Below are positions 43,533-56,471 of a stretch of 64,000 nt of DNA, one piece after another. How positions within the stretch are numbered: the stretch's first letter is position 1; each line of letters starts with the position of its first letter. Made by a program: the position numbers and the translations under genes. Where the stretch lies: contig NZ_NMUQ01000001.1 of assembly GCF_002233675.1 (NCBI RefSeq), positions 3,021 to 67,020 on the forward strand, in the 5' to 3' direction. This DNA comes from Paenibacillus herberti. GTDB lineage: Bacteria > Bacillota > Bacilli > Paenibacillales > Paenibacillaceae. The notes below the pieces were generated by a model. It ran no database searches, was not told the DNA's origin, and saw only the letters and a list, made by a program, of their open reading frames with translations.

Positions 43533-43589
43533 TAAAGGCCAGCTACTTAATAAAAGGAGCTATTCCTGTAATGAAGTAATTTGAGCTTT

Positions 43590-45190
43590 GAGCAAAAAAG
43601 CGCCACTTAGTATACTGGGAATCGTGTTCCGCCAAAGAACAAATTCCAATACGAAAGAGGCGCTCATTATGAAGTATAAATTGAAGCAGAAACAGAATCA
43701 ACGTATCACACGAATTAACGAAGCAACACTGGTTGTCGGAGCAGATATTGCCAAGAAGGTTCATGTCGCTCGTGCGGTAGACTTTCGAGGGATCGAACTC
43801 GGCAAAGATTGCGTCTTCCATAATGACGCAGAAGGGTTGACGAAGCTATCGGCGTGGATGAAAGAGCTCGGGCAAGCACACGGCAAGACCGAAATCATGT
43901 TTGGCATCGAGCCTACCGGACACTACTGGTTTCCTCTCGCAGCTTTCTTGCAAGAACAAGGGATTCAAGTCGTTGTCGTCAATCCGTCTCATGTAAATAA
44001 GACGAAAGAGCTTGAGGACAATTCGCCGACGAAAAGCGATTACAAGGACGCGAAAGTCATCGCCGATTTGATTCGGAACGGGAAGTACTCCGAACCTAAA
44101 CTACCGACCAAGGAATACGCGGATTTGCGCATCCTCATGAATTTGCGTGAGAAAGTATCTGCAAGCCTAACGCAAGCAAAAGGGCGCATCGGCAATTGGT
44201 TCGACCGGTTTTTCCCGGAGTACTCCCGTGTCTTCAAGAATTGGGATGGGAAAGCGTCGCTCATGAGCATGCGGAAGTTTCCGTTGCCCGCCGACATCGT
44301 CGCTATGGGAGCCAGAGACGTCCTGGCCCACTGGAAGACGGATGTGAAGCGCGGCGTAGGGATCAAGCGCGCGGAAGCGCTACTCGTTGCTGCCACCACT
44401 TCCATCGGTCTGACGGAGGGAACGGTTGCAGCACGAATGGAGCTTAGCACGCTCCTGAGCCAGTTCGAGCTTTTCAGCGAACAGCTCGAACAAATCATGG
44501 AGCAAGTCATGGTGATCCTGGATAGCATTCCGGGAGCCGCACAAATGCTGACCGTACCGGGAGTTGGAGCGATCACCGTCGCTGGATTTTTAGCGGAAGT
44601 TGGGGATTTGAACAACTACGATCACGGTCAACAAATCATTCGACTGGCAGGGCTGAATCTCAAAGAGAACAGCTCCGGCAAGCGCAAAGGCAGAACCTCC
44701 ATTACCAAACGAGGGCGATCGCGGCTTAGGGCGCTGTTGTTCCGCGCGGTAATGCCGATGGTGGCGAAGAACGAGGCGTTCAAAGCGCTGCACAAGCACT
44801 ATACAACGCGAAGTCAGAATCCGCTGAAGAAGAAACAATCGCTCATCGCCTTGTGCGGGAAGTTGATTCGGGTCTTGCATACGCTTGGAACCAAACAGAA
44901 GGCATACAACGCTGTAGATGTAATCGGGCCGGTTCGACAGTCTCAGATGCACCAAGCGGCTGCTTAAGCAAGAAGCACAACTCCTGGACATTTACGATTC
45001 AACGTAAGCAACGAAGACAACGGAAGCACCGGAGAAGCCGAAGCACAATATTCCATAAGGGCAACGACCCCGTAAAGGAGCAAGAATCGGCATCCACCCC
45101 TTGAGAGGTAGAACGAAGGAATGTAAGGGCATAGACCCAGCGTGACATGGGAGGGTAAACCCCGAGGGCGAAATGTGGAGATCCACTGTG
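43590..45190 (+). mobile_element. IS110-family insertion sequence (boundaries approximate)
   Basis: The transposase gene is intact. Noncoding flanks of about 80 bases upstream (with an AGCGCC/GGCGCT stem at 43599-43662) and about 220 bases downstream (GGGTAAACCCC and GTGGAGATCCAC folds) may hold the bridge RNA known from IS110 elements. No terminal inverted repeats or target duplication are expected for this family, so the ends cannot be fixed by eye. Confidence 0.6.
43669..44967 (+). CDS. IS110-family transposase (DEDD recombinase)
   Basis: A 432-residue transposase. The N-terminal RuvC-like DEDD catalytic residues lie in VVGADIAKKVHVA, GIEPTGHYWF and SPTKSDYKDAKVIADL. The C-terminal domain holds PGVGAITVAGFLAEVG and the conserved serine region NSSGKRKGRTSITKRG. 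IS110 enzymes use a bridge RNA to choose donor and target. The reading frame is intact, so the element could be active. It has inserted beside the Xre operator region of the phage-like element. Confidence 0.93.
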   Translation: MKYKLKQKQNQRITRINEATLVVGADIAKKVHVARAVDFRGIELGKDCVFHNDAEGLTKLSAWMKELGQAHGKTEIMFGIEPTGHYWFPLAAFLQEQGIQVVVVNPSHVNKTKELEDNSPTKSDYKDAKVIADLIRNGKYSEPKLPTKEYADLRILMNLREKVSASLTQAKGRIGNWFDRFFPEYSRVFKNWDGKASLMSMRKFPLPADIVAMGARDVLAHWKTDVKRGVGIKRAEALLVAATTSIGLTEGTVAARMELSTLLSQFELFSEQLEQIMEQVMVILDSIPGAAQMLTVPGVGAITVAGFLAEVGDLNNYDHGQQIIRLAGLNLKENSSGKRKGRTSITKRGRSRLRALLFRAVMPMVAKNEAFKALHKHYTTRSQNPLKKKQSLIALCGKLIRVLHTLGTKQKAYNAVDVIGPVRQSQMHQAAA

Positions 45191-45379
45191 CGATCATATC
45201 CACCATCTCACAGTTTTGGACCCCTAAGCGATCCTAAACTCTGTTCCCGCCTACGCGCTTACAGGAAATCTGGGTGCAGATCACCTTCTCCACCAATACC
45301 TCTTCAAATGTCGAAGTTGAAATACTGCGAATTAGCGAGAAAACAGGAGAAAACATTACTTTATAGTGGGAGGAAGGAA

Positions 45380-46084
45380 ATGATGTTAACAAGCGAAGCT
45401 TTAATCGGGGGCATCGGCTCCGCCTTGCGCAAACCGCTAGATGAGCTTATCGACGAGCTGAACAATAAACAGGTGGAGAGTCTCGTGCATGACGAGGCCC
45501 AAAGATACCGCGAGCTGAAGCTGCAGATTAAGGTTCTCGGCAATTATTCCGTTGGTGCGGGACTGACCGTTAGCCGCCTCAATCAGGAGGATCAGCTTCA
45601 GGATCTTCATCGGCGTTTGCGGACAATGCCGTCCTATATGTATTTGAATAAACATGAGCAAAAGTTGGAGACGATTGCCCACGCCTATTTGGATAAATAT
45701 CCTACCGGAACAAAAAGCCAGCTCGCATCTATCCCCCGCAAGGGCAACGATTTGGAGGATGATCGGCTGCTCAGAGAGCTAAGGGGCAAGCTTGAAAAGG
45801 TCATTGAAGCCCGTGCAGGCAAAATGGGGGATTACGACTCCGTGCTGGAGAGAATGGCCAAGCTTCAGGAGCTGCAAGCCGAGCAGGAGCAACTTGAAGA
45901 GGCTCTGAGTTTGCTGGAGGAGCAGAAGGACGGTTATGGCCACTTGGTCCGGCTCTATTACTTTGAGAGGAGAACGGCAGAGGCATCCGCAATGTCGTTG
46001 TGCATCTCACGCCCCACCTTTTTTCGCTGGAAGCCGGCGGCGGCAAGAATGTTTTTGAGGATACTGGAGTGGCAAAGAGAATAG
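45380..46084 (+). CDS. phage late-regulator-like protein with sigma-region-4-type HTH
   Basis: A protein of about 234 residues. It is mostly helical with a coiled-coil-like stretch near residues 175-200 (LQELQAEQEQLEEALSLLEE). The C-terminus VRLYYFERRTAEASAMSLCI-SRPTFFRW resembles the last HTH of ArpU/RinA/Xpf-type phage regulators and sigma region 4. In PBSX, Xpf switches on the late operon from this position. GGGAGGAAGG precedes two adjacent ATGs. A damaged copy of its last 174 bases lies 3.4 kb downstream. Confidence 0.65.
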   Translation: MMLTSEALIGGIGSALRKPLDELIDELNNKQVESLVHDEAQRYRELKLQIKVLGNYSVGAGLTVSRLNQEDQLQDLHRRLRTMPSYMYLNKHEQKLETIAHAYLDKYPTGTKSQLASIPRKGNDLEDDRLLRELRGKLEKVIEARAGKMGDYDSVLERMAKLQELQAEQEQLEEALSLLEEQKDGYGHLVRLYYFERRTAEASAMSLCISRPTFFRWKPAAARMFLRILEWQRE

Positions 46085-46161
46085 CTCTACAAGAGAGCGT
46101 GGAAAAAGGAATGATTCGCGTTGTTGCACTATTAAACACAACTTATATAGGCATTCGTTGG

Positions 46162-46194
46162 AGGCGAACCGCTGTAAACCTGGGTCGCCTTTTT
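46162..46194 (+). terminator. rho-independent terminator after the late-regulator-like gene
   Basis: AGGCGAACC pairs with GGGTCGCCT (one mismatch), followed by TTTT. The next 400 bases before the MarR gene contain only a GTTGCCG/CGGCAAC hairpin near 46424 and an operator; no gene was found. Confidence 0.6.
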
Positions 46195-46598
46195 GCTCAG
46201 CATTTATCAGATAAAGGATAATTCCATATCCGAGCAATCATCATAGATTTAAAAGTAGACGATCCCTTTGTATGAGTATCGTTTTTAATGAAACTGTTGT
46301 GCTCGGTTGCGCATCAATTACACGAGGGCAGGTGACCTTACTACGAAATCCATTAGCCGTTGGCGCCGTCATGTATGTCTCCACATGTGCTAGACAGACT
46401 TGGAATAATACAAAGGTTGCCGGTACGGCAACAAAGAGTTGCAGATAGCGTTGGGTTCAGGTACGATGGCGCTATGGGACATAATGTGAGTTCTCCTTCG
46501 TTTAAAAGTGTGTTGTGGTGACTACTTTATAATATAAGGAAAGCACTTTGTCTCTATTCTTTTCGAGTGTTTGAGTCAAGCTAATTTTATGATAATAT

Positions 46599-46610
46599 TT
46601 GGCATACTAA
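46599..46610. promoter_or_regulatory. MarR operator candidate
   Basis: TTGGCATACTAA is an imperfect version of the TTAGCATGCTAA palindrome found twice before the nitronate monooxygenase gene. It lies 21 bases before the MarR start codon, consistent with autoregulation. Confidence 0.55.
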
Positions 46611-46631
46611 ATATATAAAGACGGTGATTTT

Positions 46632-47051
46632 ATGATAGAAGATGAAATTAGAGAAATTTTAGATAAGGTACATGCTCAAATGCGTAGAAATTTCGCTATA
46701 GCGTTAAGATCGTTAAATTTACATGTGGGGCAAGAACATTTATTATGTCGTTTATGGAGTGGTGATGGAGTTACGCAACAACAATTATGTGAACATTTAA
46801 AATGCGAAGCTTCAACTGTCACAAATATGCTAAAAACACTTGAGAAAAATAAACTTGTATATCGCATCCGCGACGATAATGATGGGCGAATTAGCCGAGT
46901 ATTCTTGACAGAGAAGGGGAGAGAAATTAAAGAACCTATTGAAAAAATGTGGAGAGCCCAACAAGACAAGTTATTGAATGGTATTGTAACAGAAGAGCGA
47001 TTGTTATTACGAAGAATTCTGAAGCAGATGGAAAAAAATTTGTTACCGTAG
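46632..47051 (+). CDS. MarR-family transcriptional regulator
   Basis: A 139-residue winged-helix regulator. VTQQQLCEHLKCEASTVTNM is the recognition region, and the wing contains RDDNDGRISRVFLTEKG. Likely a repressor of the nitronate monooxygenase gene 1 kb downstream, because matching palindromes precede both. Codon use and base composition are more A+T-rich than in the surrounding phage-like genes, so the pair was probably acquired. The ribosome binding site is weak. Confidence 0.88.
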   Translation: MIEDEIREILDKVHAQMRRNFAIALRSLNLHVGQEHLLCRLWSGDGVTQQQLCEHLKCEASTVTNMLKTLEKNKLVYRIRDDNDGRISRVFLTEKGREIKEPIEKMWRAQQDKLLNGIVTEERLLLRRILKQMEKNLLP

Positions 47052-47137
47052 ATTGATTAAAACTAAACCAATATTTGTTACCGTAAGTTTATCTGACCAT
47101 ACTTGTGTCACCACGACACACTCCTTTTACGGAAACC

Positions 47138-47820
47138 TCAAACCATAAGTCCAGGGCGTAGTGCAGATATAGATTTGCAAGTATTGGAGATGGACCCTTG
47201 AGGAATTCCGGTCTTTGTTGGCTCCCATAGACCTTGCTCCATAATCCCGCCTTTCAGAAAACGTCTGACCAGACTTTGGATGTTAGAGTCTCCTACTCTC
47301 ACCCCGAGAAATTTCATGAGCCATTGGTGATTGACATTTGTGAAGAAGCTACGGATGTCGGCATCCACAATGTAGCTGGTTCTTTCGTATTCGATACTGC
47401 GATTCAATGCTTTTAGCGCGTTATGACAACTTCTACCAGGTCTAAAACCGTAGGACAGGTTCAAAAAGTTCTGCTCGTAAATGGATCCCGAGTGGTCTTG
47501 TGCTCTTTTCATCCTTGGGAATATAGGTTCTTTTTACAGGTTGTGGTCGGTAGCTTTTCTTCTTTAAATCGATCTACCAAGTCCTTGATGTTTGATTCCA
47601 GATTCTCCTCATACATTGCTTTTGTGACTCGATTAACCCTCGTTGCTTATTACCGTCAAGTTCAAAGTGGCATTGTGGTAGCAGTTCCTCGTTCAAGTGC
47701 CTACGCTTAACGTCTGAAATTACCTCCAGCCGTCCAAGAATCTGCTGTTGGTGGCTTGGCTATAGCCTTTTCAAGCGGGGTTTCCACCTGCTTTACTTCA
47801 CAACCTAGGCTTGGTCGCAC
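47138..47820 (-). mobile_element. group II intron relic with degenerate reverse transcriptase
   Basis: Read on the minus strand, the piece starts with GTGCGACC, the usual 5' end of a bacterial group II intron. Reverse transcriptase segments follow in different frames: AMYEENLESNIKDLVDRFKE, then KRTYIPKDEKSTRPLGI, then YGFRPGRSCHNALKAL with DADIRSFF. The frame shifts, an internal segment between RPLGI and the YGFRP block is missing, and the catalytic YxDD and maturase parts are absent. It is inactive and splits the MarR gene from its probable target. Confidence 0.82.
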
Positions 47821-47871
47821 CGAAAGTTGAGTAATTTACTTTACAAAGGGCAAAAAAATGTTACAATTCAT

Positions 47872-47982
47872 TTAGCATGCTAAGTATATAGAGGATGGTG
47901 ATATGTGTGTGTGATAGATTGCAATCAACTATATGTGGTGATTGATATGTATATTTTTTTGTGAATATATTTAGCATGCTAA
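47872..47982. promoter_or_regulatory. two MarR operator candidates (TTAGCATGCTAA)
   Basis: The perfect 12-base palindrome TTAGCATGCTAA occurs at 47872-47883 and 47971-47982, within A+T-rich sequence upstream of the nitronate monooxygenase gene. Confidence 0.7.
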
Positions 47983-48062
47983 ATAAATGAGATTTTGATT
48001 ACTTGGATGAATAGCCCTATATTTCGAACAGGTTATTTAAATCATAAGGAGTGGATAGTTTT

Positions 48063-49037
48063 ATGAAAAATGAAAATAGCATCACAAATATACTTGGAAT
48101 TGAATTTCCAATAATTCAAGCGGCAATGTCGTGGGTCACGGACGCAAAAATGGTTGCAGCAGTATCAAACGCTGGTGGCATGGGTGTGTTAGGTCCGAAT
48201 GCTGGTCAAAATTCATTCGCTTCAGGGCCAGATGAAGTAGGAAAAAGACTTCGTGAAGAAATCCGTAAAGTGAAAAAATTGACAGATAAACCTTTCGCTT
48301 TGAATCTCATTATGCCTGAACAAGGCCATACTGACCAATATACAACTGCCACCTTTGAAACGGCAGTTGAGGAAGGCGTAAAAATATTTGTATGTGTGGA
48401 TGGCGGAGTAAACAAGGAGGTAATGGGAGAAATAAAGAAACTTAATTTGACATTAATACATCGTACACTAACAATATCTCCTGAAGCAGCAAAAATGGCT
48501 GAGGCTCATGGAGCTGATATTATTATTGCGACTGGTTATGACGAAGGAGGAACGCTTCCACAGAACCATATTGGTACGTTTTCTATTGTACCTACGATCG
48601 TAGATTCAGTAAATGTGCCGGTATTAGCTGCAGGTGGAATTAATGATGTTCGTGGAGTTAGGGCAGCTTTTGCCCTTGGAGCAGCAGGCGTTTATGTAGG
48701 AACTCGATTTATTGCATCAGAAGAGTGCCCTGCTGTTGAGGAAGCTAAGCAAGATATTATAAATTCCAAGGCATCAGATCTCTTGATGGTATCATCATTT
48801 CAACGTTCCACACCAAATAAATTTGCATGTGAAATCGGTGCTATGTATAGGGATGGGGAATCATCTGAAAATACAGAACAGAGAATTAGGCAGATTGGAG
48901 GAATCTTCCCAAGGATGATCTTAGGAAGACGTGATGAAGGTATCAATTCGGTTAATACGGCCATTGATCTTATCAGTCAAGTGAAAAGCTGCAAAGATAT
49001 TATTCACGAATTAATGGCTGACTTCATTAAACACTAA
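48063..49037 (+). CDS. nitronate monooxygenase (2-nitropropane dioxygenase family)
   Basis: A 324-residue FMN-dependent TIM-barrel enzyme. The N-terminal IEFPIIQAAMSWVTD and the flavin-phosphate motif AAGGINDVRGVRAAFALGAA followed by VYVGTRF are typical. The family oxidises nitronates, which are respiratory toxins; FabK-type enoyl reductase is related but less likely here. The ATG 11 bases after AAGGAG is preferred to an upstream GTG that overlaps it. Probably controlled by the MarR protein encoded upstream. A+T-rich, likely foreign. Confidence 0.9.
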   Translation: MKNENSITNILGIEFPIIQAAMSWVTDAKMVAAVSNAGGMGVLGPNAGQNSFASGPDEVGKRLREEIRKVKKLTDKPFALNLIMPEQGHTDQYTTATFETAVEEGVKIFVCVDGGVNKEVMGEIKKLNLTLIHRTLTISPEAAKMAEAHGADIIIATGYDEGGTLPQNHIGTFSIVPTIVDSVNVPVLAAGGINDVRGVRAAFALGAAGVYVGTRFIASEECPAVEEAKQDIINSKASDLLMVSSFQRSTPNKFACEIGAMYRDGESSENTEQRIRQIGGIFPRMILGRRDEGINSVNTAIDLISQVKSCKDIIHELMADFIKH

Positions 49038-49094
49038 GTGGAAAATCGCTATTTTATGGAGGAGAGCTCCAATCAAAAAAACCAACCATTCATA

Positions 49095-49466
49095 TTGGGG
49101 ACTGACCCCCGTTTGTGAGAAAACCTTCAGATAGAACGTTTCAGACTTTAGCGTGGAATGAAACGATTCAATGGGGGCATTATCAGCGGGCGTTCCCTTA
49201 CGGGACATGCTCGTGGTAATGTCTTTTCCTTTTATAACCTCTTGATAGGCGAGAGTCGTATACACTTCCTTGATCGCTATGGAGCATCATACCCGGTACA
49301 TATTTTAGTTGATATAGCGTATCTAGCACAAAGGCCGTGTCTTGCTTGTCCGCTATACTGTACGCCACGATCTCCCCGTTAAACAAGTCTAAAATACTCG
49401 ACAAGTACAAGGTTCGTCCACCAAAAGGCAGATAGGTAATGTCAGTCACGAGTTTTTGCATCGGAG
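49095..49466 (-). mobile_element. IS3-family transposase remnant (OrfB 3' part)
   Basis: The minus strand encodes KLVTDITYLPFGGRTLYLSS and DLFNGEIVAYSIADKQDTAF of an IS3/IS150-type integrase core. A frameshift near 49250 follows, then KGTPADNAPIESFHSTLKSE. A TGGGGACTGACCCC end resembling IS3 termini lies near 49097. The 5' part is cut off where the late-regulator copy begins. Inactive. Confidence 0.8.
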
Positions 49467-49637
49467 TTTGCTGGAGGAACAGAAGGACGGTTAAGGCCGC
49501 TTGATCCGGCTCTATTACTTTGAGAGGAGAACGGCAGAGGCGTCCGCAATGTCGCTGTGCATCTCGTGCCCGACCTTTTTTCGCTGGAAGCCGACGGCGA
49601 CAAGAATGTTTTTGAGGATACTGGAGTGGCAAAGAGA
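49464..49637 (+). pseudogene. duplicate of the late-regulator 3' end
   Basis: 174 bases align without gaps to 45907-46080, with 11 differences counted by eye. One difference turns TAT into an in-frame TAA, and no start or N-terminus is present. The duplicate is the right-hand boundary of the 3.4-kb insertion. Confidence 0.85.
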
Positions 49638-51538: not shown

Positions 51539-52852
51539 ATGGCAGGAGGCAATTTTACTGCAATGAACAAAGTTAGGCCGGGGGTGTACATCAATTTCGC
51601 TACAGAGGGAACGGCGATTGCGCCGGGCGGACGGGGCACGGTTGCTCTGGCGCTTCCGCTATCCTGGGGAGAGTCGCAGATGCTGCAAGCAGTTGAAGCG
51701 GGCGAGGATGTGCTGCCAAAGCTCGGCTATTCGCTGGGGGATTCCGAGCTGCTGCTCGTTCGCGAGGCACTTAAGCGGGCAAGCCGTCTGCTGCTGTACC
51801 GTCTCAACAGCGGCGTACAGGCTTCCGCAACTATCGGCGCGCTGACGGCTAAAGCCAAATATTCCGGCTTGCGCGGCAACGCGCTCAGCGTAGCGGTTGT
51901 AGCCAGTGTTGACGTGCCGAGTGAGTTCGAAGTTGTAACCTATTTGGCGGGAGTGGAACGAGACAAGCAGGTTGTCGAGACGGTTGACGAGCTTGTAGAC
52001 AACGATTGGATCGTCTGGAACGCAACCGGCGCGCTGACCGCATCCGCAGGCGCCCCGCTAACTGGCGGCACGGACGGCGCGGTGACGAACCAGAACTATT
52101 CTGATTTTCTGCAGGCTACCGAGCTACAGGAGTTCCATACGATGGCGTATATCGGCACCGATCCGGTCATGAAGGGGCTGTTCGCCGCTTTTGCCCGCCG
52201 TTTGCGCACTGAGGAAGGCCGCAAAATCCAGGTGGTCATGGAAAACTACGCCTCCGCCAACGATGAAGGGGTCATCAGTGTCAAAAACGGCGTTCGGCTA
52301 GAGAATGGAGTCGTCCTGACCGCTGCTCAAGCTTCCGTATGGGCAGCTGCTGCGACTGCGGCAGCCGGTCCAGGCCAGTCGTTGACCTTTTCGGCCTACG
52401 ATGGCGCAGCGGATGCGGCTCCTCGGCTGACTCATTCCGCTACCGTTGCTGCGTTGCAAGGCGGAGAGTTTCTGTTCACGGCCCGCGCCGGTTCGGTTGT
52501 CGTGGAGCAGGATGTGAACTCGTATCATCAGCCGACTCCGGCAAAGGGCAAGCTTTTTGGCAAAAATCCGGTTGTCCGTGTGCTGGACGGGCTTGCGAAC
52601 GACTTCAAAAGCACGTTCGAAGCGCTCTACGTCGGCAAAATCGGCAATAACGAGAATGGCCGCGCTTTGTTCCGCAAGGACTGCGTCAAGCTGATGGAGC
52701 AGTATGGGGCAATAGGAGCGATTCAGGGTTTTGACGCCTCGAAGGATATCGAGGTTTCTCAAGGCGGTGAGCCGGATACGGTCGTTGTAGCCGCCTCAGT
52801 ACAGCCGGTGGATGCAATTGAAAAAATCTATATGAAAGTACAGGTGAAGTAA
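51539..52852 (+). CDS. xkdK: contractile tail sheath protein XkdK
   Basis: A 437-residue tail sheath protein. The N-terminal NKVRPGVYINF and the central domain are typical. The C-terminus contains FRKDCVKLMEQYGAIGAIQG and ends DAIEKIYMKVQV. The sheath surrounds the tube and contracts to drive it into the target cell, marking a myovirus-type particle. AAGGAGG precedes the ATG. Confidence 0.93.
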   Translation: MAGGNFTAMNKVRPGVYINFATEGTAIAPGGRGTVALALPLSWGESQMLQAVEAGEDVLPKLGYSLGDSELLLVREALKRASRLLLYRLNSGVQASATIGALTAKAKYSGLRGNALSVAVVASVDVPSEFEVVTYLAGVERDKQVVETVDELVDNDWIVWNATGALTASAGAPLTGGTDGAVTNQNYSDFLQATELQEFHTMAYIGTDPVMKGLFAAFARRLRTEEGRKIQVVMENYASANDEGVISVKNGVRLENGVVLTAAQASVWAAAATAAAGPGQSLTFSAYDGAADAAPRLTHSATVAALQGGEFLFTARAGSVVVEQDVNSYHQPTPAKGKLFGKNPVVRVLDGLANDFKSTFEALYVGKIGNNENGRALFRKDCVKLMEQYGAIGAIQGFDASKDIEVSQGGEPDTVVVAASVQPVDAIEKIYMKVQVK

Positions 52853-52853
52853 A

Positions 52854-53318
52854 ATGAGCATTTTGAACGCAGGAGATACTCTTTCCGGACATTCCGGCAC
52901 GGCATTTGCGACGATTGGCCAACAGAGCATTGAGATGTTTTATGTGAAAAATCTGAAGGCGACGGCCAAAAAGAATAAAGCGGACATCAAAACGCTCGGC
53001 AGCCGTATCACTCAGAAAAAAGCGACGGGCTGGGAAGGCACTGGAACAATGACGATTTATTACGTCACGACAAAGTTTCGTGAAATGATGAAACAATATA
53101 TCGATAACGGTATCGACACTTATTTTGATATTCAGGTGACGAACGACGATCCTGCTTCCACCATCGGCAAGCAGATTGTAACGCTGATCGGCGTCAATTT
53201 GGATGAGGTAGTTATGGCTTCGCTGGATGTAGAGTCCGATGCGCTGGAAGAAGAAATTCCATTCACTTTCCACAATGTCGATATTGGTAAGTCGTTTAAC
53301 GAGCCGACTTCTCGTTAA
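52854..53318 (+). CDS. xkdM: tail tube protein XkdM
   Basis: A 154-residue protein of the XkdM family, which builds the inner tube inside the sheath. MSILNAGDTLSGHSGTAFAT at the start and GWEGTGTMTIYYVTTKFREM are characteristic. Sheath and tube are adjacent, as in PBSX. A hairpin with a short T tract follows before the chaperone gene. Confidence 0.92.
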   Translation: MSILNAGDTLSGHSGTAFATIGQQSIEMFYVKNLKATAKKNKADIKTLGSRITQKKATGWEGTGTMTIYYVTTKFREMMKQYIDNGIDTYFDIQVTNDDPASTIGKQIVTLIGVNLDEVVMASLDVESDALEEEIPFTFHNVDIGKSFNEPTSR

Positions 53319-53448: not shown

Positions 53449-53871
53449 ATGACTATGAAACTGTTTTTTGCCCAAAACGCCCTGCAATCGGAACCTCAGG
53501 AGGTTATCATATCGGAGCGCTTCGTTGATGAAACAGGCCGTCCCTCTGCCTGGAAGCTGCGCGCCATTTCGGAGGAGCTGAACGAGGAGCTGCGCTCCCA
53601 GTCGATGAAACGGACAAAGGGCAAAAACGGCCAAGGCATGCCGGAGCTGGACTACAACGCCTATCTTGGCCGCATGGTAGCCGCCTGCGTTGTGTTTCCA
53701 GACCTGAATGATACTGAGCTCCAGCAGTCTTACGGTGTTCGGGGTGCAGCTGCGGTCGTGCGTAAAATGTTACTTGCAGGTGAGTTCGCCAACCTTGCTG
53801 CCAAGGTGCAGGAAATCAACGGTTTTGACAACGATATGAGCGAACTGTCCGATGAAGTAAAAAACGACTAG
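53449..53871 (+). CDS. xkdN: tail assembly chaperone XkdN (short product)
   Basis: A 140-residue chaperone with the XkdN-type core (MTMKLFFAQNALQSEPQEVI, WKLRAISEELNEEL). It coats the tape measure protein during tail assembly. At the 3' end the reading is GTA AAA AAC GAC TAG: the heptamer AAAAAAC is a canonical -1 slippery site, four bases before the stop codon's first base. A second frame continues for 63 codons (next entry). Strong ribosome binding site AAGGAGG. Confidence 0.85.
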   Translation: MTMKLFFAQNALQSEPQEVIISERFVDETGRPSAWKLRAISEELNEELRSQSMKRTKGKNGQGMPELDYNAYLGRMVAACVVFPDLNDTELQQSYGVRGAAAVVRKMLLAGEFANLAAKVQEINGFDNDMSELSDEVKND

Positions 53872-54056
53872 AAGAGGGCGACGGAGAGTGGAACTACGCT
53901 TACTACGCCCTCAACGAATATGGGATTATGCCATGGGACTTCGCCGGACTGAGCGTCCGTCGCAAAGCGGCGCTGATCGGCATGATCCGAGTCCGCCTCG
54001 ATGCGGAGAAGCGCGCCAGGCTGCAAAGCTCGCCCCGCTCCGGGCGGGGTCGTTAA
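53865..54056 (+). CDS. -1 frameshift extension of the tail assembly chaperone
   Basis: After slipping on AAAAAAC (53859-53865) the ribosome would read RLEEGDGEWNYAYYALNEYG and on through VRRKAALIGMIRVRLDAEKR to a TAA. That is 63 extra residues with no start codon or ribosome binding site of its own. The extension has clear protein character and fits the long form of chaperone made by frameshifting in many tailed phages (lambda gpG/gpGT is the model). The long product would be about 202 residues. Confidence 0.75.
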   Translation, partial: RLEEGDGEWNYAYYALNEYGIMPWDFAGLSVRRKAALIGMIRVRLDAEKRARLQSSPRSGRGR

Positions 54057-54089
54057 CGCTTTTTCGGGCATGGTCTGAGGCGAGATATT

Positions 54090-56471
54090 TTGATAGGAAA
54101 GGAGGTTTTAGCTATCGCGACTTTACAAGCGACGATTACGCTTTACGACCGATTCACATCTGGACTTGGAAAAGCGAACAAAACGTTAGAACGAACCATA
54201 CAGCTTAGCGAAAAGCTTCGCTCAAAGCTGTCTATCCCGCTTAAAACGACGGTTGAAGCGGATAAAGCGAAGAAAGCGCTGGACGGTCTGAAAAAACAAG
54301 TGGATTCCCTTCGCAAGCAGCCCATTCAAATTAAGTTGGATGAATCTGATTTTTCGCAGCAGGTATCTCGGTTGAGAAGTGAATTGGAAAAGAAATTAAC
54401 GGCTCAACCCTTTCTTTATAAGCTGCAAGGGCAGAGCTCAGCGGCAGCTCCTGCCGCATCGCCGACGCCTGCAGCGGCGACTGCATCCCCTAGTCAGGCA
54501 GCGGCCAGCACAGCAGCTGTAACAGCTTTTCCATGGGACTCCATGTCACAGGGCGCAGTCGCCGGGATTCAAGCCGTCGGAAAAGCGATGCAGACGGCAG
54601 ACAAAATTTCGAAAAATGGAATGCCCGAATTTATGAACCTGCTAGCGGGACGAAGCGTAACTGCTGCGGACGGGATTGCAGGGTTATCGGCTATGTTGCA
54701 GCAGCTTATTCAAGTTTTCCCCCTATTTCCAGCAGTGGTCAAAAGTGCGATGGAGCAGCAGTCCATTAAGGATCAATATAAGGTTAAAACAGGCAGCGAT
54801 GCTGGAGGCGAAGTGCTTTACAATGCCGTTGGGAGACAAGCGTTAAAGGCCAACGTTGATCAATTGGAGGCCCAAAAATCAGGAATTGCCTTGACTAGCG
54901 TGACAACTGACCCGGCCATGCTTACCGCTCTAAACGGATTCACAATGAGGATGCAGAAGCTTAATCCATCCAATAAACAAGGTGCAGTAGGAATCGATTT
55001 AAGGAAGTTGTTAAGTGGAGATACTTCTGTTCTGAAAGGCTATGAAATAAGCGACAAGGATTTCAATGCAAGCGGCGCGCAAAAAGCGATAAGAGCCGGT
55101 GATGGCGCCGGTTTTGTTAAAGCTTTTGACCGTTTGCTGAGTGCAAAAGGAATGAGCCAGTCGCAGTTCAATCAGCTGCAGCAGACACCAGGAGCGAAGA
55201 TGCAGGGCTTGCAGCAGCATTTGAACGTTCAGCTCGGTTTGACCGGAGTGCCGGCCATGGAGGCGCTAATACCGATGGTCGACCAATTAACGGCTGCTTT
55301 TGAGGCTGGAAAATTTGATTCGTTTTTTGGCGCGTTATCAGCGGGTTTGTGGGTTGTAGGTGAATTACTGGCAAAGGCAGGCGAAGCTGTAGTTGCGTTC
55401 GGGGATTTCTTCTCCATGTATGGGGATCAAATCGTGGCAATGTTAATTGCAGTAGGGCTTGTTTTACTGCCTCTGTTGGTCATCCAGATCTGGTCTATGG
55501 TCGCTCCGCTGGCTGCGGTGGCTTTTCAGTGGATGATCATAAATGCTCCTATTCTGATTATCATGGTCGCAGTCATGGCGCTTGTTGGTATTCTGTTACA
55601 TTTCGGCGTCACATCGGAGCAAATTGTCGGCACAATCGTGGGCTCTTTCTTCTTTTTAGGTTCAGCCATTTACAACATAGTTGCATTTGTATGGAATTTA
55701 TTCGCAAGCTTGTCCAACTTTCTATTTAATCTATTTGTCGATCCGATTTATGCCATTAAAATGCTGTTCTACGAATTGGCTAAAAACTTCTTGGATCTGA
55801 TGTATAACATGATTCTCGGAGCGGAGACTTTTGCCGGAGGGTTCATGAAGACGATTCTTAAAGGAATCAATGGCGTAATTTCGGGCGTAAATTGGTTGAT
55901 TAAGGCCTTGAATAAAATACCGGACGTCGATATTAAACAGGCCAAGCTGCTTGATGAGAACAATCAAAACGCAATTAGTAGCGGCATCAAAAACATGGCG
56001 GATTCACTCGTCAAACCGACGAGCGATAAAAATGTCGTGGTATCGCCGCAGATGAAATATAAGGATTCAGCCGCTGCCTACAACAATGGATATGACAAGG
56101 GCGCCCAGTTCATCGACAAAATGAAAAATCATGAGGGGTTATTTGGAAAGGATAAGGAAGAGGAGTTTAAAGGAAAGACCAAAATCACCGCCGGCCCGCC
56201 GCCAACGACCCCCGGAACGAACGATATTGGACGGGTAGGCGAAGTTGGTAGCATCAAAGATGAGGTCGATATCGGCAGCGAGGATTTAAAGGTGATGCGT
56301 GATCTGGCGGAGATGAAGGCGATCCAGAATTTTGTCACGCTGACGCCGACGGTACAGGTGACGACCGGACCTGTGAACAGTAAGGTGGACGTGAACGATG
56401 TTGTCCGCGAGATTACGACGAGCATGGAAAGGGAGATTCAATGGTCCGCTCAGGGCGTATTCGGCTTTTAG
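54090..56471 (+). CDS. xkdO: tail tape measure protein XkdO
   Basis: A tape measure protein of about 785-793 residues. The N-terminal third is helical and the Ala/Pro-rich part lies near residues 130-155. Three hydrophobic segments lie at about residues 450-560 (for example LLPLLVIQIWSMVAPLAAVA), and the C-terminal tail is basic and Pro-rich. It sets tail length. The start is odd: the listed TTG lies before a perfect AAAGGAGG, while the codon placed 8 bases after that site is ATC, which would give the natural beginning ATLQATITLYDRF. Confidence 0.87.
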   Translation: MIGKEVLAIATLQATITLYDRFTSGLGKANKTLERTIQLSEKLRSKLSIPLKTTVEADKAKKALDGLKKQVDSLRKQPIQIKLDESDFSQQVSRLRSELEKKLTAQPFLYKLQGQSSAAAPAASPTPAAATASPSQAAASTAAVTAFPWDSMSQGAVAGIQAVGKAMQTADKISKNGMPEFMNLLAGRSVTAADGIAGLSAMLQQLIQVFPLFPAVVKSAMEQQSIKDQYKVKTGSDAGGEVLYNAVGRQALKANVDQLEAQKSGIALTSVTTDPAMLTALNGFTMRMQKLNPSNKQGAVGIDLRKLLSGDTSVLKGYEISDKDFNASGAQKAIRAGDGAGFVKAFDRLLSAKGMSQSQFNQLQQTPGAKMQGLQQHLNVQLGLTGVPAMEALIPMVDQLTAAFEAGKFDSFFGALSAGLWVVGELLAKAGEAVVAFGDFFSMYGDQIVAMLIAVGLVLLPLLVIQIWSMVAPLAAVAFQWMIINAPILIIMVAVMALVGILLHFGVTSEQIVGTIVGSFFFLGSAIYNIVAFVWNLFASLSNFLFNLFVDPIYAIKMLFYELAKNFLDLMYNMILGAETFAGGFMKTILKGINGVISGVNWLIKALNKIPDVDIKQAKLLDENNQNAISSGIKNMADSLVKPTSDKNVVVSPQMKYKDSAAAYNNGYDKGAQFIDKMKNHEGLFGKDKEEEFKGKTKITAGPPPTTPGTNDIGRVGEVGSIKDEVDIGSEDLKVMRDLAEMKAIQNFVTLTPTVQVTTGPVNSKVDVNDVVREITTSMEREIQWSAQGVFGF

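Follow-up and report, generated by a model that had tools for sequence, protein, structure and literature searches.

Introduction

Tail assembly chaperones made in two forms by ribosomal frameshifting are known from lambda, SPP1 and many other phages. In lambda a programmed -1 frameshift produces gpG and gpGT (reviewed in PMC5009743, citing Xu et al. 2004, 2013, 2014); the part common to both proteins binds the tape measure protein, whilst the extension, which is made at a low level, binds the tube protein (PMC5009743). The 17.5/17.5* proteins of SPP1 are ascribed to a putative -1 frameshift identified by bioinformatics (PMC6316719), and the haloarchaeal virus HCTV-2 uses A_AAA_AAC for the g-t shift of its tail chaperone (PMC5009743). 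Low similarity among tail chaperones is also established (PMC5009743). Here we describe a candidate site of this kind in an XkdN-like chaperone gene within a 64,000-nucleotide stretch of Paenibacillus herberti DNA (the window).

Results

An XkdN-like chaperone gene with a slippery heptamer and an open -1 frame

The gene at 53449–53871 on the plus strand encodes an XkdN-like tail assembly chaperone with a short, zero-frame product of 140 aa. This product matched PF08890 (Phage_TAC_5) over profile positions 2–135 of 135 with 147.6 bits (E 2.7e-43), passing the curated cut-off of 27 bits, and matched phrog_389 with E 6e-45. Sequence and predicted-fold searches agreed on YqbN of B. subtilis (3klu) as the nearest solved structure to this short form. 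Pfam and PHROGs matches place the gene between those for the tail tube and the tape measure protein. Counting phase from the start codon (ATG 53449), the heptamer A AAA AAC, a -1 slippery site, occupies 53859–53865 and is followed in the zero frame by GAC TAG (53866–53871), the TAG stop (53869–53871) lying one codon past the heptamer.

The -1 frame opens at 53856 and stops at 54054–54056. Its extension (53865–54056, plus strand; 63 codons and TAA), delineated by the open frame, alignment, dN/dS and a helical model, reads in the -1 frame from 53865 as RLEEGDGEWNYAYYALNEYGIMPWDFAGLSVRRKAALIGMIRVRLDAEKRARLQSSPRSGRGR (63 aa). A fusion of XkdN and extension is predicted to comprise approximately 202 aa and to contain the junction peptide EVKNRLEEGDGEWNYAYYALNEYG. 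A first-pass annotation had reported AAAAAAC in the zero frame close to the TAG, a -1 frame open for 63 codons and an extension lacking its own start. The position and phase of the heptamer proved exact to the base, no stop codon precedes the end of the extension at 54056, and its first 21 codons contain no ATG, GTG or TTG, the earliest start being ATG 53928 at codon 22, midway through the conserved part. Two other occupants of the gap before the tape measure gene were weighed and rejected, namely a +1-frame ORF (53888–54208), the length of which varies among relatives, and a minus-strand ORF (53868–54071).

Conservation of the site among relatives

The PF08890 profile matched in 201 of 300 genomes of the same order, and the best-scoring 111 loci, the window included, were examined. 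AAAAAAC was present in frame, at or near the stop, in all 111 of these top-scoring loci. In most of them the stop directly follows the heptamer; the distance is 3 nt in a few, including the window, and 36 nt in locus L013. The -1 extensions were 50–73 aa in length. At the level of the phylum, 28 of 29 strong loci carried AAAAAAC, in a set that includes one repeat of an order-level locus (L130); the other locus, L132, had AAAAAAG in the same phase. The L132 site is dnaX-like, lies 54 nt ahead of the zero-frame stop and is followed by a similar extension. Weaker PF08890 matches were more varied: 16 of 20 had AAAAAAC, two a run of nine A, one a run of eight A, and one homologue (L172) had no extension at all. 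The A9 runs (L169 and L170) and the A8 run (L171) belong to one distant clade, in which they replace AAAAAAC.

The heptamer is also tied to this place in the gene, since in 53 relatives one other in-frame AAAAAAC was found in 6572 upstream codons, against 53 of 53 at the site itself. Together with the conserved hairpin described below, these comparisons provide very strong evolutionary evidence for a frameshift signal.

Among named phages, AAAAAAC was found in nine of ten records (L148–L157). In Streptococcus phage EJ-1 (L150, NC_005294.1 30163–30759) an additional base immediately ahead of the heptamer joins chaperone and extension into a single continuous ORF of 198 aa, unlike in its close relative MismyG; this is either a genuine fusion or the result of an error in sequencing.

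The extension as a conserved protein

Substitutions in the extension were counted in 35 disjoint pairs of relatives with a median nucleotide identity of 86%. The -1 frame gave a dN/dS of 0.113 with zero stop codons, whereas the other two frames gave values of approximately 2.1 (138 codon pairs containing a stop) and 1.9 (142 such pairs). Differences in the -1 frame fell at the first, second and third codon positions in the proportions 182/125/625. In an alignment of 56 diverse sequences one Pro was invariant and Leu, Ala-Leu and Ala residues were nearly so; conservation began at the first codons. This substitution pattern indicates that the second frame is kept as protein, under purifying selection.

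An AlphaFold2 model of the extension was a helical domain with a mean pLDDT of 83. Family, sequence and fold searches with the extension gave no consistent Pfam family and no relative of solved structure; a match to 7udk was set aside as this is a designed helical repeat protein. With regard to homology with lambda gpG/T, the short form gave only PF08890 in Pfam and only YqbN (3klu) by fold, and the extension gave nothing significant.

Selection on the heptamer codons and a downstream hairpin

Elsewhere in the genes AAA accounts for 47% of Lys codons, AAC for 56% of Asn, GTA for 19% of Val and GCA for 21% of Ala, whereas AAA, AAC and the preceding NNA codons are fixed at the site, against codon usage. 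With the 53 loci counted as independent, the combined probability of this codon choice is approximately 1e-66; their relatedness makes this figure too extreme.

A predicted stimulatory stem-loop, absent from the first-pass annotation and added by comparative analysis, lies at 53874–53912 on the plus strand and was defined by folding, synonymous permutation and codon bias. Its arm GAGGGCG (53874–53880) pairs with CGCCCTC (53906–53912), and the spacer between heptamer and stem-loop is 8 nt, a distance canonical for ribosomal frameshifting. Synonymous codon permutation was applied to 51 loci in 45-nt windows at positions -240 to +105; the mean fold z reached -2.14 +/- 0.17 at +15, whereas no other position gave a value outside -0.5 to +0.5. 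Codons within the stem were strongly biased, with GAG at 97% (background 59%), GGC at 84% (31%), GCC at 81% (34%) and CTC at 91% (14%), and pairing was retained in 87% of cells, compared with 46–63% when the partner was slid. Covariation was limited, three pairs having changed on both sides, as both stem arms are also protein-coding. An RNAalifold consensus of the whole alignment returned a weak alternative register, and reliance was therefore placed on permutation folding and codon bias. More distant loci often fold differently and some lack the same hairpin. No clear upstream Shine-Dalgarno-like stimulator was seen in the window, the family average containing a weak dip at -12 to -18. These last points, like the limited covariation, the alternative register and the homologue without an extension (L172), weigh against the frameshift reading. 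Stimulatory RNA elements are common at -1 sites and are not obligatory. Taken as sequence evidence, permutation folding and codon bias indicate an RNA hairpin under selection, for which a stimulatory role is predicted.

The tape measure gene and the surrounding cluster

Downstream of the extension, the tape measure protein gene (54114–56471, plus strand) matched phrog_1068 with E 1.7e-99, and its start was assigned by comparison with relatives. Translation probably begins at ATC 54114, with AGGAGG at 54100 (8 nt upstream), giving the protein IATLQATITLYD. The same start codon is ATC in the close relative L071, ATA in L055 and ATG in L047, L051, L065 and L067. The mechanically called start, TTG 54090, lies upstream of the AGGAGG ribosome-binding site. 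As a possible non-canonical start, ATC may lower tape measure synthesis.

Upstream of the chaperone gene are plus-strand genes for a contractile tail sheath protein (51539–52852; PF04984, PF17481, PF17482) and the tail tube protein (52854–53318; PF09393, E 8.5e-44). An HK97-gp10-like protein and a tail terminator are also encoded upstream. Past the tape measure gene are LysM, YqbQ-like, sheath initiator, baseplate J and Mu gp48-like genes and, further downstream, a putative fibre, a holin and an amidase. Host genes lie on both flanks. The cluster encodes a contractile tail and lysis functions, and the three head families searched (Phage_portal, SPP1_portal and Terminase_3) had no match in the whole genome. 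With no head genes found, it is probably a tailocin. The closest named relatives found were Paenibacillus pasadenensis and P. humicus.

The region upstream of the tail cluster (43588–49632) contains an ORF judged by eye to be transposase-like (43588–44967), a fragment with a reverse transcriptase domain (47138–47512, PF00078) and one with an integrase core (49198–49632, PF00665).

Discussion

The locus very probably undergoes programmed -1 ribosomal frameshifting as lambda G/GT does, yielding a short and an extended chaperone. With AAA and AAC in the P and A sites at A AAA AAC, a fraction of ribosomes would slip back one base, helped by the hairpin 8 nt downstream. Unslipped ribosomes would end at the TAG and release the 140-aa short form, whilst slipped ribosomes would read on in the -1 frame to make the extended chaperone of approximately 202 aa as a small share. 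Following the precedent of lambda gpG/gpGT, the tape measure protein would be coated by both forms, and subunits of the tail tube would be brought in by the extension. In lambda both proteins leave the tail. What we infer is that ribosomes slip at the site, how often they do so and how the two forms share the work; by analogy with lambda, the tube protein would be bound by the extension and the tape measure protein by the common part. The first-pass annotation had proposed this frameshift and pointed to the two-form chaperone of lambda and other tailed phages, a precedent that the literature bears out (PMC5009743; SPP1, PMC6316719). It had also suggested comparison with related xkdN loci, an unconserved, non-protein-like second frame being the outcome that would speak against it. 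The heptamer was found in 111 of 111 loci and the substitution pattern strongly favours coding; together with the selected hairpin, the universal heptamer and purifying selection on the extension support the proposal.

Transcriptional slippage is an improbable explanation for the family, although it draws on the same run of A: RNA polymerase would slip on A6, and an altered number of A in some mRNAs would put the extension in frame. Eight or nine A are lengths at which polymerase slippage is plausible, and in the clade with A9 (L169/L170) and A8 (L171) it is a live possibility. Six A are short for polymerase slippage; moreover, C follows the run in nearly all loci, the run keeps the X XXY YYZ phase, L132 has AAAAAAG in that same phase, and the selected hairpin 8 nt downstream has the geometry of a ribosomal frameshift. 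Still less probable is reinitiation, in which ribosomes would start afresh at an internal codon past the chaperone stop and make the extension as a small protein of its own. In the public records of phages Osiris, phiCDKH02 and PBP180 part of the extension does appear as an independent small ORF, but in the window the extension has no start in its first 21 codons and yet is conserved from the first codons onwards, and reinitiation leaves both heptamer and hairpin unexplained. A-rich genes contain A-rich heptamers by chance, but a chance heptamer before a decayed or meaningless frame, the least credible account of all, is refuted by its presence in 111 of 111 loci, by the single in-frame copy elsewhere in 6572 codons and by purifying selection. 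Programmed -1 ribosomal frameshifting is thus the preferred reading.

In E. coli, A AAA AAC is reported to be much less shift-prone than A AAA AAG (PMC5009743), a point against the frameshift reading; because of this weakness, the near-fixed A AAA AAC in Firmicutes may reflect host-specific decoding. A broader proposal is put forward tentatively, the balance tilting slightly against it: that the XkdN family of Firmicutes contractile phages and tailocins shares one near-universal, undocumented cassette of A AAA AAC and a hairpin at 8 nt, and that this cassette, given the reported weakness of A AAA AAC in E. coli, would be adapted to Gram-positive ribosomes, with A AAA AAG, A8/A9 and the in-frame fusion as rare natural experiments on the rule. 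The frameshift appears to be retained in a tail cluster with no head genes found, and two-form chaperones may therefore matter for tail or tailocin assembly itself; a continuing need for both chaperone forms in building the tail would explain why the putative tailocin keeps the signal.

For the XkdN family, a search of the open literature found no report of a frameshift site, and an earlier description is possible. A joined chaperone-extension gene is annotated in none of the ten named-phage records, where the extension is omitted or partly called a separate small hypothetical ORF; two of the ten label the chaperone 'portal protein'. The frameshift would supply the missing half of a family annotated, in the records inspected, as a short chaperone or as a chaperone plus a spurious ORF. 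The site is strongly conserved and is therefore usable as an annotation rule for XkdN loci, and the well-supported hairpin adds detail to a known kind of frameshift.

Compared with described systems, the locus resembles lambda G/GT in its position between the tail tube and tape measure genes and in having a short chaperone with a -1 extension that ends just before the tape measure gene. It differs from lambda in its family (PF08890), in its A AAA AAC site, in slippage close to the stop, in a clear downstream hairpin, and in belonging to a contractile and headless cluster. With SPP1 it shares a Gram-positive host and a chaperone ahead of the tape measure gene, whereas SPP1 is a siphovirus with the site UUUUUUC. 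HCTV-2, unlike the source of the window, is an archaeal siphovirus. In PBSX, xkzB may correspond to the same extension. The xkdN locus of the PBSX-like phage PBP180 has the same AAAAAAC and an extension of 60 aa, in a record that annotates no shift and presents part of the extension as a separate hypothetical ORF.
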